DNA of 36,061 bases, from positions 1 to 36,061 of IMG/VR virus record IMGVR_UViG_3300009149_003930. One strand, given 5' to 3'. The DNA is from a virus. Below are positions 1,154 through 36,061 of the stretch, in pieces. Within the stretch, counting starts at the first letter, position 1, and the number at the start of each line of letters is the position of its first letter. A program made the translations under genes and the position numbers. Under the pieces are notes generated by a model. The model did not search any database and was not told the DNA's origin. It saw only the letters and a list, made by a program, of their open reading frames with translations.

Positions 1154-1289
1154 CCAAAGAAGTAAGTTGTTCATTCTTGTTTTCCCAAACATCTCCCCTA
1201 GGAAGAGATTCTGTTAGCCTCTTCCTCATAGCTCGAAGTCTTCTGGCCAGAAGGTCTTGAATGAGGGTAGGAAGAGGAAGATCAGTCAT
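1149..1289 (-). CDS. Small hypothetical protein (46 aa)
   Basis: A 46-residue frame starts MTDLPLPTLIQDLLARRL and ends in NEQLTSLE. Its ATG overlaps the TGA of the HNH gene (ATGA) and is preceded by AGGAG nine bases upstream, which supports translation. It is basic in the middle, with no recognised domain. Its TAG stop lies inside a copy of the GAGTAGGTTTAT element, and a second copy separates it from nrdG. It may be the gene that originally followed sbcC, before the endonuclease gene inserted; that is inference. Confidence 0.5.
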   Translation of the reverse strand: MTDLPLPTLIQDLLARRLRAMRKRLTESLPRGDVWENKNEQLTSLE

Positions 1290-2160
1290 GCTTTGGGTCT
1301 CCTGATTATCTCTATCTCTTCATTTTGAGCTTGAAGTTTCCTGTCTCTCTGAAAGTCCTGAAAGTATGAAGTCCAGTATTTCCTTCTTCCATTTGTCTTC
1401 ATATGGCATCTATGGCAGAGAGTTATTAGATTCCAAGGATCATTGTTCTTCTTGTTGTAATCTATGTGATGAACATCAGGAAGCTTTCCATTTCCACTTC
1501 CTTCTCCACACAATTGACAGATATGACCATCTCGTTCTCTGATTCTTTCTTTGAGAATGTTGTTGAACTCAAGGCTATACTCTTCAGAGGAAATTCCTCC
1601 TTTCCAATTTGGATTGAGATTTCCAAATTGATCTGGATGATTATCTCTCAATTTCTGCTTGTGATCTTCAGAAAGATGTTTGCCAAAGAAGGGATGATTT
1701 TCACCAGCCTGAAGCCCTATATGAGACTCGGAACACTTTTTCTTAGTGTCTTCAGACATAGGAACTCCCCGTCGAGAAGATGGCTTTCCGTACACAGGAT
1801 TATTCTCCCCTTGTTGCGTACAGAAGCATCTTGTTTCCACTTCTTTGTATGCTTATGACCATAAAAAGGAGCTAACTCTCTAGTCATCCCATATATAGGA
1901 TTGTTCTCACCAGACATACGTCGTGAATGTTCTTGTTTCCACTCTTTGGTATGGCATTTGCCTAAATGGGCTTCACTATTCTTTATTTTAGCTTCTTCTG
2001 TATGATGTTTGCCAAAGAAGGGATTGCTCTTTCCTTCCACACGCTCAGAAGCATCTTGTTTCCACTTCTTTGTATGCTTATGACCATAAAAAGGATTGTT
2101 CATCCCAATCCTTTTTCCAGACATCTTGGCTTTAGTTTCCTCTGTATGATGCCAGCTCAT
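1286..2160 (-). pseudogene. NUMOD3-repeat HNH homing endonuclease, interrupted by a frameshift
   Basis: Two overlapping frames together make one homing endonuclease of about 291 residues. The upstream frame (from 2160) holds repeated blocks such as NNPFYGHKHTKKWKQ and SNPFFGKHHTEE, typical of the NUMOD3 DNA-binding repeats. The downstream frame continues them (ENNPVYGK, ENHPFFGKHLSEDH) and ends with an HNH nuclease: CQLCGEGS, PDVHHIDYNKKNND, NLITLCHRCH. The frames join at a C4 run at 1807-1810: one extra base there (G5 on the coding strand) restores KGENNPVYGK. The deletion may be a real mutation or a homopolymer sequencing error. Free-standing homing endonucleases commonly sit beside phage nrd genes, as here. 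The gene starts ten bases after the sbcC stop, so it probably rides on the same transcript. Confidence 0.85.
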
Positions 2161-19811: not shown

Positions 19812-21137
19812 TTATTGTGATCCTTTGTGTATGAAATTGGTTAGTATTCTCATCCTGGCAAAGTCTGCTGTGGCATCTATAACTTGCCCACACTCATCAT
19901 CTCTGTCTTTGGCCATGTAGAATCGGCATGATGTATCTCCTGATTGTATCTCTTTCCGAGTTCTGTGTAAAGTTATGAATACATCTGCTGCTGCATACAC
20001 TCGCCAAGACTCTGATACCTCTTCTTCATACAAGACAGGAGATTCTTCAATAGGCTTATTGCCTGCTGATCTGTAATTCTTACGTTCTGGCCTTTTGGCT
20101 TGGATAGCTGTCCAGACTGGGATGTGGAATGATTGTCCCATTCCACACAGTTGTTCATATATCTCTCCAATTCCTTCATAAGTATCTGTATGGTGGGAGG
20201 GATTCAGAAGTTGTCCATAGTCAACGATCACAAAATCTATTGGCATCTGGTCCATAAGAATAGTCAGGTGGCCTTTGATTGTAGACACCCCAATTGATCT
20301 CATGGGAAAGTGCTTGATTAAAAGCTTGCCTCGTTGGAGTTGTTGCTTCTTGTGGTCAAGAGCCTTTTCAAAGGCTACCGGGTCTTTCCGAAGGTCTTTG
20401 CGAGTCAACCCTGCGTAATAGTAGGCTAATCGGGTGGCAATGCGTTCCTCAGACATTTCCATAGTATAATAGACTCCAGATTTACCCACGTCCGTTCTAA
20501 TAGCTCCAGCTGCTATGTTGACTAGGAAGGCACTCTTGCCTCTATTGGGGAGAGTCATAATGACTCCCAATTCTCCTGGTCCTAAGCCTCCACCGATCAG
20601 CATGTCTATGTGTTTGAGAGTTGTAGGGACTCTATTTGGATTATACTCACTCTCAATAGACAGATAATCATTGTTTTTCTCCCAGGAGAGTCCCAGATTT
20701 TGTCGGTCTTCTCCTACCCGGATAGCCTCTTCAAATAGTTGGACAATGCCCTTGTAGTCTTGCCTGTCTAAAAGTTCTCTGGACTGAAGAACGGCCTTCT
20801 TGACTTCTCGTTCTCTGGCAAATTGTATTACGATGTCTTGGAGGAATACCACGTCGGAGGTTTGAGGCTTGACTGCCCAGATTCGGCCTATTAGTTGCTT
20901 GACTCCTACAATACCCTTGCCCTCTAAGAAGGCTAGGAAGGTTTCTCTAGCAGGAGGAGATTTGAATTGGTTCAGAAATTCAATTCCAGCAGCTGCTATG
21001 GCTTGTGACGTGGTGCCTTGGAACCTTTGGGGAATCAGAAGGTCTTTGAAGATACTACTTAGGCGTTTAGACCTAAGTAGTAGAGCAAGCATCTTGGTTT
21101 GGAGAGGATAGTGAGTCCTCTTGGTAAAATCTACCAC
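19812..21137 (-). CDS. DnaB-like replicative DNA helicase
   Basis: A 441-residue RecA-fold helicase (DnaB/gp41 type). The N-terminal 150 residues are helical. The ATPase core has Walker A LPNRGKSAFL, the following MEMSEERIATR typical of DnaB, Walker B FVIVDYGQLL, and a late KDRDDECGQ segment. Walker A reads NRGKS, a minor variant of GxxxxGKS. It unwinds the fork ahead of the polymerase and works with the primase encoded directly downstream. The start is a GTG that overlaps the TAG of the upstream gene. Confidence 0.9.
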   Translation of the reverse strand: MVDFTKRTHYPLQTKMLALLLRSKRLSSIFKDLLIPQRFQGTTSQAIAAAGIEFLNQFKSPPARETFLAFLEGKGIVGVKQLIGRIWAVKPQTSDVVFLQDIVIQFAREREVKKAVLQSRELLDRQDYKGIVQLFEEAIRVGEDRQNLGLSWEKNNDYLSIESEYNPNRVPTTLKHIDMLIGGGLGPGELGVIMTLPNRGKSAFLVNIAAGAIRTDVGKSGVYYTMEMSEERIATRLAYYYAGLTRKDLRKDPVAFEKALDHKKQQLQRGKLLIKHFPMRSIGVSTIKGHLTILMDQMPIDFVIVDYGQLLNPSHHTDTYEGIGEIYEQLCGMGQSFHIPVWTAIQAKRPERKNYRSAGNKPIEESPVLYEEEVSESWRVYAAADVFITLHRTRKEIQSGDTSCRFYMAKDRDDECGQVIDATADFARMRILTNFIHKGSQ

Positions 21138-23476: not shown

Positions 23477-25656
<2,180 letters not shown>

Positions 25657-29309: not shown

Positions 29310-29564
29310 TCAATTTATTTGAGCATTTGTAAGCATGAATTGGTGAACTCCATCCAAATACCACACATACCAGGTGGAGCCTTCTACCTCAAGTTTCTCT
29401 TTGATAGACTCCCAGCTTTCACCATTCTACAGTTTTCTAAGAAAGTCCTGCTTCTCATGGTCTCCATCCATAGCAGCATCAATTACATTATTAAGAACAA
29501 CACAAGCACACTGTTCAACAGGTGTTTCCAATTGCCAAACATCAGACATACATTCCATAACCAT
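29310..29564 (-). pseudogene. Hypothetical protein (84 codons) interrupted by one in-frame TAG
   Basis: From an ATG at 29564 with AAAGGAGGT just upstream, the frame reads MVMECMSDVWQLETPVEQC ... DFLRKL (45 residues), then TAG at 29427-29429, then NGESWESIKEKLEVEGSTWY ... LTNAQIN and TGA. The second half has no start or ribosome site, and its codon usage and protein character match the first. LRKLQNGESWESI reads naturally with Gln at the stop. The gene upstream shows the same lesion. Function unknown; the tail (WYVWYLDGVHQFML) looks like a small beta domain. Confidence 0.7.
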
Positions 29565-29596
29565 TTACATACCTCCTTTCATTTTAGACTGTATAT

Positions 29597-29812
29597 TTAC
29601 AATGCTGCCAGATATTCCCTAATTTGCTGCTGAATCATTGGGATTGATGGGGGCACAGGATAACGGAAGCTGTTCACAGCAATCAAGATATCTATATCAT
29701 AGATATTAACCCGACAGCAACCATCCTACACAAAGGCCATCTTGTGCTCCTTGTCATATTGCACATACCTGGCCCCATTGACCCACTCAAAAACTCTCTG
29801 AATTGGATCCAT
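29597..29812 (-). pseudogene. Hypothetical protein (71 codons) interrupted by one in-frame TAG
   Basis: From the ATG at 29812 (AGGAG five bases upstream) the frame reads MDPIQRVFEWVNGARYVQYD then KEHKMAFV (28 residues), TAG at 29726-29728, then DGCCRVNIYDIDILIAVNSF ... REYLAAL and TAA. The frame is continuous apart from the amber codon and no second start exists. Gln at the stop would give MAFVQDGCCRVNI. Function unknown. Confidence 0.7.
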
Positions 29813-30037: not shown

Positions 30038-30226
30038 TCATCTTCTTTGATTAGATATTGTCCAGTATATCTCTTTGGATTTTGTATCCAGTAGAGACAC
30101 AATCTCTTTGGATTTTGTATCCAGTAGAGATATTATGGCAGCTAACAAATCAGCCAAGTTCCTATTCTCAGGAATGTTTGGCAGAAGTTTCTGTATGAGA
30201 TTCAGTACTGCAATTGCTAGATTCAT
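30038..30226 (-). CDS. Small protein with a tandem 11-residue duplication (62 aa)
   Basis: A 62-residue frame with AAGGAG before its ATG. Residues 34-55 contain LLDTKSKEI twice because of a 33-bp tandem duplication (29 of 33 bases at 30069-30097 and 30102-30130 match exactly). The N-terminal part is helical and hydrophobic (MNLAIAVLNLIQKLL). The duplication keeps the frame. Not recognised. Confidence 0.6.
   Translation of the reverse strand: MNLAIAVLNLIQKLLPNIPENRNLADLLAAIISLLDTKSKEIVSLLDTKSKEIYWTISNQRR
30069..30130. repeat. Tandem duplication, 33-bp period, two copies
   Basis: Two copies of ATCTCTTTGG...CCAGTAGAGA lie 33 bases apart, 29 bases identical, inside the small gene at 30038-30226. 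The high identity suggests a recent slippage or recombination event. Confidence 0.9.
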
Positions 30227-32669: not shown

Positions 32670-32951
32670 ATGTGTGAAAAGAGTGTAATCCGCATTCTCT
32701 TCCAACAATGTGTGTATTTAGCCACAGTTTGGTTCTACTTCCCAGGGGTAAAGAAGACCCAAGTTGATTGTGTGTTTAGCCACAATGACGAGCTTTGGTC
32801 CTTTATTCCTAAATGGGTCCAGTTCTCCAGTCCCCATGACGCCCTTATGGATTTCCCATACATTGCTTTCATGATACTAGAAATCACAGTAGGTAACGAC
32901 GGGAAGTTGGCTGTTCATGTCTTTTTTCAAAAAGGGTCTAATTTTTCTTAG
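32670..32951 (+). CDS. Hypothetical plus-strand protein (93 aa)
   Basis: The only plausible plus-strand gene. From the ATG at 32670 it reads MCEKSVIRILFQQCVYLATV then WFYFPGVKKTQVDCVF ... HNDELWSFIPKWVQ ... ITVGNDGKLAVHVFFQKG, a soluble alpha/beta-looking sequence with varied codons; the opposite strand has no long frame here. The Shine-Dalgarno is weak (GGA). An in-frame TTG at 32622 could extend it. Its TAG converges on, and overlaps by a few bases, the stop of the next minus-strand frame. Not recognised. Confidence 0.5.
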   Translation: MCEKSVIRILFQQCVYLATVWFYFPGVKKTQVDCVFSHNDELWSFIPKWVQFSSPHDALMDFPYIAFMILEITVGNDGKLAVHVFFQKGSNFS

Positions 32952-33202
32952 ACTTCTAACGTATCTTTTAGAACTTTTTCTGCATGTCTAAACTTTTTCT
33001 CTTGAAGAGCTGCAATAATCACCTCTTCAAAACTGTCTCTGAAGATTTCCCGGCCAATAGAGATCAGGTCAGCCTGGTTTCCATCTGGCACTCTTACAAG
33101 ACAGTTCTTGATGTAATTACATAGAATTTCTCTGATATCATCCTTGACAGTCTCAACAACCAGTGCCAGGATGATTTTGTCTGTACTATAATCTTGTGTC
33201 TC
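32948..33202 (-). pseudogene. Hypothetical protein frame without a start codon (84 codons)
   Basis: An open frame with clear protein character: DYSTDKIILALVVETVKDDI, LISIGREIFRDSFEEVIIAA, then FRHAEKVLKDTLEV and TAA. AGGAG lies at its 5' end at the right distance, but codons there read ACA CAA GAT TAT, with no ATG, GTG or TTG. Either the start codon was lost, or a base or two is missing, or translation enters from the preceding gene: that gene's TAG, ten codons, a second TAG and this frame are all in phase. Helical; not recognised. Confidence 0.55.
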
Positions 33203-33213
33203 CTAAATTGAAG

Positions 33214-33237
33214 AGTGTCTTCCTTTAGGAAGACACT
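33214..33237 (-). terminator. Perfect 10-bp hairpin at the end of the 52-residue gene
   Basis: AGTGTCTTCC and GGAAGACACT pair perfectly around a four-base TTTA loop, starting within the TAG stop of the upstream gene. No T-run follows on either strand. It may end or stabilise the transcript, or serve as a processing site. Confidence 0.45.
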
Positions 33238-33394
33238 ATGAAAACTTTACTTGTAAAGTAAATTGAATCTTCTGTAAGTCATCAATTAGATTTGGGATGT
33301 GGATTAGTATCTCTGCCCTTTCCACCTTTGAGAGAGTCTGGAACATTTGAGCTCTGTTCAGTAATTCGCAGATTCTCTTCTGTCTTATGTTCAT
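33236..33394 (-). CDS. Small helical protein (52 aa)
   Basis: A 52-residue frame, MNIRQKRICELLNRAQMFQT onward, helical and amphipathic, with AAGGACA directly before the ATG. It ends in TAG inside a perfect hairpin. Not recognised. Confidence 0.62.
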   Translation of the reverse strand: MNIRQKRICELLNRAQMFQTLSKVERAEILIHIPNLIDDLQKIQFTLQVKFS

Positions 33395-34526: not shown

Positions 34527-34922
34527 TCAGCGTTTGAAGAGGAAGCTCCTTCCCCCTATCTTTACCTCAAGGTCTCTCGAACCTTCGCCGAGTCCAACAA
34601 CTGCTTCTGTTTCTTCCTTCTGTCCTTTCCCGACAACTTGAAGGACTTCTGATAGGGGAAGGCAGAATGTCGTTACGATACTCAGCATCTCCCTCGCTTC
34701 CCCTCCCGTCTCAAATGTGCGGAGAACGAGGTATTCTGGCTCTCCTTTCACATTGTGGCCGATCTCCCATCCTGAAAGGACTTTTGGCTCTCTTCCCGTT
34801 CGGGGCAGAAGTTGGTCCATTACCCAGGTTGGAAGAAGATCGTGCCCTTCTGCAAAAGTCTCCAGAAGTTGGGCGATAGTTTCATCCGGTCTCATTTTCT
34901 TCATCTCCCTTCTTTCCTTCAT
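34527..34922 (-). CDS. Hypothetical protein ending in IGGRSFLFKR (131 aa)
   Basis: A 131-residue protein from the ATG at 34922 (GGAGG eleven bases upstream); an ATG at 34895 with GGGAG is an equally good start. It reads DETIAQLLETFAEGHDLLPT, EYLVLRTFETGGEAREMLS and ends VKIGGRSFLFKR, the same C-terminal peptide as the next gene. Codons favour CGA and TCT/TCG. Not recognised. Confidence 0.66.
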   Translation of the reverse strand: MKERREMKKMRPDETIAQLLETFAEGHDLLPTWVMDQLLPRTGREPKVLSGWEIGHNVKGEPEYLVLRTFETGGEAREMLSIVTTFCLPLSEVLQVVGKGQKEETEAVVGLGEGSRDLEVKIGGRSFLFKR

Positions 34923-34940
34923 TTCTGTAATGTCCTCCAA

Positions 34941-35280
34941 AATAGATCAATTTTCGAGCTCTTCTCGTCCCGAAAAATCCGAGAATCGAGAGAACCTTCC
35001 GAAAAGTAAACCCCCGGCGGGGAAAAAGGTTTCCGGTTTTCTTTTCTCCAAAATAAACCTACTCCTGAAGATTTTTGGAGATTTACAAAATAAACCTACT
35101 CTGAAATAATCTCCGAATTTACAGAATCGGTCGGCTTTCGGGGGTTTTCCGAATTTCCCAAAAAGGGGCCGAAGGGGCCAAAGGCGGACGGGGCCGAAGG
35201 GGCCAAAGGGGCCGAAGGCGGACGGGGCCAAAGGCGCTTCAAGGCGGACGGGGCCGAAGGGGCCAAAGGCGGACGGGGCC
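34941..35280 (-). promoter_or_regulatory. Non-coding region with elements, a GC-rich stem and a GGGGCCRAA array
   Basis: It holds two GAGTAGGTTTAT elements (35055-35063, 35092-35100), one AAACC-N15-GGTTTCC block (35008-35034) around a CCCCGGCGGGG-like stem, and the repeat array at 35165-35283. The 94-codon frame across it is made of repeats (GPFGPFGP) and elements, and I reject it. Confidence 0.55.
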
Positions 35281-35283
35281 GAA
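35165..35283. repeat. GC-rich array of GGGGCCRAA and GGCGGAC units
   Basis: About nine GGGGCCGAA or GGGGCCAAA units alternate with GGCGGAC spacers over some 119 bases. The array abuts the T-run of the terminator at 35281-35319. Function unknown; it is unlike the AT-richer genome around it. Confidence 0.85.
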
Positions 35284-35319
35284 AAAGAAAAGGGGCGAGA
35301 ACCTTTCGGCCCTCGCCCC
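35281..35319 (-). terminator. Strong intrinsic terminator after the 35337-35663 gene
   Basis: On the minus strand a 12-bp stem (GGGGCGAGGGCC pairs with GGTTCTCGCCCC, two G-T pairs) closes a GAAA tetraloop and is followed by TTTTCTTTTTC. It lies 17 bases after the stop codon. This is the clearest transcription end in the window. Confidence 0.9.
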
Positions 35320-35336
35320 CTTCCGCCGACTTTCGT

Positions 35337-35663
35337 CTATCCGGAAAGTTTCGCCGAAAAATCCCGAACGAGGCGGATATTTTCCCGAAGGAAAAAAGTC
35401 TCGTTTTCGAGAGTTTCGAATTTTCCGTTCCGAATCGAGTTTCCGAGATTTTCGGCTCTTTTCGAGATTTCCTCGGAAAGGGCGAGAAGGCGGAGTTTCG
35501 CCGTTTCTCGGACTTTCGCCGAATATATTTCCCGGATTTCGGACATCCGAGCCGTCGAAGAATTCTCGACTCCCGTCCGTTTCGTCGCCTTCGCCGAGCT
35601 TTCGGCTTTCGCCGTTTCCCGGATTTCCTTCGGCGTTTTGCCGATTTTCGTCGTTTCGGACAT
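35337..35663 (-). CDS. Hypothetical helical protein, CGA/TCG-rich codons (108 aa)
   Basis: From the ATG at 35663 (GGAGG eight bases upstream) it gives 108 residues, Lys/Glu/Arg/Ala-rich and helical: TPKEIRETAKAESSAKATKR, then RLLALSEEISKRAENLGNSI. The open frame continues to 36056 through the 17-bp repeats, but that part is not protein-like. Codon use (TCG, CGA, CGG, TTC) differs sharply from the replication genes. It is followed by a strong terminator, so it ends a transcript. Function unknown. Confidence 0.65.
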   Translation of the reverse strand: MSETTKIGKTPKEIRETAKAESSAKATKRTGVENSSTARMSEIREIYSAKVRETAKLRLLALSEEISKRAENLGNSIRNGKFETLENETFFLRENIRLVRDFSAKLSG

Positions 35664-36061
35664 TTTCGCGTCCTCCGTTTCCGTCCGAATTCGAAACTCC
35701 GCCCGCTTCCGGAAAATCCGGATTCCGGGGAAGCCTTCGAAAGGGAAACCCCCGGGGGGTCGAAAAGGTTTCCGGTTTTTTCGCTTTTTCGAGGGACTTT
35801 CGGCGGTTTCGGCGAAAAGGAAAGAAAACGGAGGAAAAACGAAGGCCTTTGGGGAATTCGGCGAAAGGGAAGTCGAAACTCCGTTTCGGGGGAAACTCCG
35901 TTTCGGGGGAAACTCCGTTTCGGGGGAAACTCCGTTTCGGGGGAAACTCCGTTTCGGGGGACCCCCTCGATTTTCCGAAAAGGCGGAGTTTCGGGGATTG
36001 GCTGACCTTCTTTTTAAACAGACATAAAATTCTATGGTTTTAAGGTTTACACACATTACAC
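35664..36061. promoter_or_regulatory. Non-coding, GC-rich region with iteron-like array (to window end)
   Basis: No credible gene occurs in these 398 bases. They contain an AAACC-N16-GGTTTCC block (35746-35773) around a CCCCCGGGGGG stem, and five 17-bp units at 35875-35959. The last 60 bases become AT-rich. Frames on either strand are repeat artefacts. Confidence 0.5.
35875..35959. repeat. Five tandem 17-bp units with internal dyad
   Basis: The unit is GAAACTCCGTTTCGGGG, five perfect or near-perfect copies. Each holds GAAAC-TCC-GTTTC, an inverted repeat able to form a small hairpin or bind a dimer. The period is not a multiple of three, so it is not a protein repeat. Iterons of an origin or an operator array are possible. 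Confidence 0.9.

Follow-up and report, generated by a model that had tools for sequence, protein, structure and literature searches.

Two Adjacent Small Genes Each Interrupted by One TAG

A small gene in this phage sequence (gene A) has an in-frame TAG where its homologues encode Trp, and a probable small gene beside it (gene B) is interrupted in the same way. We think it very likely that these are isolated TAG changes in the sequence, be they real recent mutations or consensus errors. The window analysed is an entire IMG/VR record, a linear fragment of 36,061 bases in which the minus strand carries all of the convincing genes. Gene A (29310-29564, minus strand) runs from an ATG at 29564 to a TGA ending at 29310, giving 84 codons plus the stop, with the TAG at codon 46 (29427-29429) and the ribosome site AAAGGAGG upstream. 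Gene B (29597-29812, minus strand) begins with an ATG at 29812 and finishes with a TAA ending at 29597, giving 71 codons plus the stop, with its TAG at codon 29 (29726-29728) and the ribosome site GAGAGGAGA upstream. These features confirm the original prediction of two frames with good ribosome sites and one TAG apiece.

Both genes sit within a block of small genes. The minus strand was scanned for frames 55 or more codons long that have a ribosome site, contain one internal stop and lie outside other genes, which returned genes A and B and the frame at 34947-35663 for TAG, one frame for TAA and none for TGA. Of the frame at 34947-35663 and the TAA frame, one was judged to be the natural end of a gene running into repeats and the other a stretch of repeats. 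In all four fragments codon usage favoured the frame given here over the other minus-strand frames, a signal too weak to decide the status of gene B.

The TAG of Gene A Aligns with an Invariant Trp

Searches of viral contigs identified relatives of gene A on nine distinct contigs (loci L001, L002, L003, L007, L008, L020, L021, L023 and L025). The two halves match these relatives independently, with E-values of ~1e-6 to 1e-5 before the TAG and ~1e-12 after it. Because both halves have relatives, sequence comparison places gene A far beyond chance as a true gene. In a ten-row alignment the TAG column holds Trp in all nine relatives, within the motif LW[D/P], and TGG is the codon printed for eight of them at this position. 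The standard code specifies Trp by TGG only. With Trp in every relative, TGG is the most probable ancestral codon, which would imply a step from TGG to TAG by one G-to-A substitution in the coding strand, as opposed to C-to-T from CAG. Gene A therefore has what a nonsense mutation would leave behind, namely a sense codon one base away in the homologues and conservation on both sides of the stop. Downstream of the TAG the relatives share nine invariant positions. Eight of these are unchanged in the window and the ninth is Leu in place of Met, which argues for a stop of recent or artefactual origin and for a frame that has not long been decaying. An exact DNA pattern spanning the TAG of gene A matched nothing in other viral contigs.

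This alignment bears on several parts of the original prediction, which had proposed that Gln restores a natural reading at both stops. For gene A the Gln reading fails given the invariant Trp, and the suggested comparison with homologues carrying CAG returned Trp nine times out of nine. The alternative of natural ends at the same place likewise found no counterpart, as no relative has a stop there. Mutation was among the options listed and, together with consensus error, makes up the reading that we favour, but the C-to-T direction attached to it does not hold for gene A. Filling an in-frame stop with whichever residue gives the most natural reading can thus mislead, and it is the homologues that settle which residue belongs there.

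The two closest relatives also have gene A within a block of small genes, though with other neighbours. Two of the relatives, at 2971-3216 of L007 and 3998-4228 of L020, have TAG as the natural stop after their C-terminus. The family consists of small phage proteins with the sequence LWDGESW...GSTWYVWYMDGV.

Predicted Fold and Consequence for the Gene A Product

The family has no match in Pfam, PHROGs or NCBIfam. A structure model built on the alignment has four helices at moderate confidence (pLDDT 76.5), and the product is probably a small helical protein. The second helix of the model closes with residue 45, immediately ahead of the TAG, leaving the last two helices as the portion that would be lost. 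Comparison of the model with PDB and BFVD structures matched nothing, and the fold suggested no function.

In the explanation that we favour, gene A is a genuine accessory gene, the phage uses the standard genetic code, and the conserved Trp codon of the gene has become TAG in this sequence. Translation would then stop after 45 residues, the C-terminal half, which is the more conserved, would not be made, and the full-length protein would presumably be lost. The lesion proposed for gene A shares with amber nonsense mutations in phage genes one in-frame TAG in place of a conserved sense codon, with conservation in the remainder downstream. It differs from them in that it is known here from the sequence of a metagenomic contig alone, where a consensus error is equally possible.

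Gene B Is a Plausible but Unproven Gene

Searches of viral contigs, genomes and phage records, and of the records that contain a relative of gene A, found no relative of gene B. Dinucleotide shuffles of the gap that gene B occupies gave a similar architecture (a start with a ribosome site, at least 65 codons and at most one stop) in 3.7% of cases, which places gene B modestly beyond chance. It is plausible, but unproven, that gene B is a real gene. Lying just upstream of gene A, it would most likely carry an isolated nonsense change like that of gene A, a shared cause being our inference.

Recoding and Readthrough Fit the Window Poorly

The original prediction noted that TAG also ends other genes and that genome-wide recoding did not fit simply, and both points were borne out. 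Among the 61 frames listed, 11 terminate in TAG, one of them a fragment of the NAD-dependent DNA ligase gene (ligA), and in several cases the TAG overlaps the ribosome site of the gene that follows. The 6,536 codons of the seventeen larger genes contain no TAG, while the same codons hold 87 TGG and 96 CAG. Reading of TAG as Gln through a suppressor tRNA (code 15), which might be confined to one stage of infection, has precedent in phages such as phAss-1, and the remainder of this phage genome is unseen. In phAss-1, TAG occurs inside 41 ORFs, three suppressor tRNAs are present, and the suppressed positions of TerL are Gln in its relatives (PMC10607447). The window shares with such TAG-recoded phages an in-frame TAG in otherwise intact phage genes. 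They differ in that recoding there involves dozens of genes, conserved Gln positions and tRNAs with a CUA anticodon, whereas here only two small frames are affected, TAG is an ordinary stop for about ten other genes, and the position in gene A is a conserved Trp and never Gln. ARAGORN found no tRNA in the 36 kb window, the record being a fragment of the phage. In four records with gene A relatives no suppressor tRNA was found, the sole tRNA there being a tRNA-Ser in the record of L008; a tRNA-Glu lies near L020. We regard Gln suppression as the least likely of the readings considered. A suppressor that inserts Trp, supplied by the unseen part of the phage or by the host and giving full-length products of A and B only when active, would, if demonstrated, be an unusual assignment among the recoded stop codons of phages. 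Nothing positive supports it, and we rate it as highly improbable too, if a little less so.

Programmed or context-driven readthrough would give each protein in two forms, short and long, and is suggested by a downstream half of gene A that still looks functional and by the likeness of the sequence around the two TAGs, which lie within 300 bases of each other in the setting TGTAGRATGG. Against this reading, the stop is not kept at this place in any relative of gene A, and predicted pseudoknot-free RNA folding 3′ of the TAGs falls within the range of shuffled sequences (z of -1.5 and -0.7), so that no stimulatory structure is apparent. We found no evidence for either the stage-specific suppression or the programmed readthrough that had been raised initially, and consider readthrough very unlikely, though it ranks just ahead of the two suppressor readings. 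The related pattern TGTRGRATGG has three copies in the window against 0.28 expected, a pattern noticed after the fact. As a mutational motif it was rejected, as the unconverted copy at 20138 reads TGTGGAATGG.

Real Nonsense Mutations or Consensus Errors

Single-base lesions in this contig are not confined to TAG. The ligA gene (23477-25656, minus strand) has a frameshift near 25100 that cuts off its 5′ part (25081-25656) from the remainder in another frame (23477-25057), with PF01653 positions 3-64 found in one frame and 85-253 in the other. A NUMOD3/HNH homing endonuclease gene (1286-2160, minus strand) also occupies two frames, with the break at a run of G near 1810. Lesions of several kinds fit gene loss or consensus error, and a mechanism specific to TAG is uncalled for.

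Isolated TAG changes can be read in two ways, about equally likely, and each on its own falls somewhat short of an even chance. If the changes are consensus or sequencing errors, one or both places would hold sense codons in nature, and the ligA and endonuclease frameshifts would have the same origin. The presence of several kinds of single-base lesion within a single metagenomic contig of 36 kb, one at a run of G, and the little decay in the conserved downstream half of gene A point this way, while the integrity of most of the long genes, with their thousands of codons free of internal stops, argues against it. If the changes are instead real and recent, genes A and B would be non-essential accessory genes, and a shared role may explain why both were lost. 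Their place among small genes, which gene A also has in its two closest relatives, the adjoining position of the two lesions and the broken endonuclease gene are consistent with this. Against it, the strong ribosome sites and conserved downstream half show little further decay, and loss of ligA would be unusual. Under either form of the isolated-change reading, if the lesions are independent, two stops of the same kind less than 300 bases apart and in a similar setting have to be taken as a coincidence.

Other Frames and Repeats in the Window

A third gene interrupted by TAG was considered at 32948-33394 and rejected, since a terminator-like hairpin directly follows the first TAG and the second frame lacks a usual start. 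The DUF7174 match of this candidate falls short of the curated cut-off. The region 33100-33240 (minus strand) presents, in order, a TAG stop, a terminator-like hairpin, an AGGAG resembling a ribosome site and an open frame without a usual start. Convincing relatives were not found for another TAG-containing frame, at 32718-32918. The sequence at 34900-36061 is repetitive and its translations are of low complexity (FGPFGPVRLWP; FPPKRSFPRNGVSPETE), and a tandem duplication of about 30 bases (atctctttggattttgtatccagtagaga) lies at 30065-30125 inside overlapping small frames.
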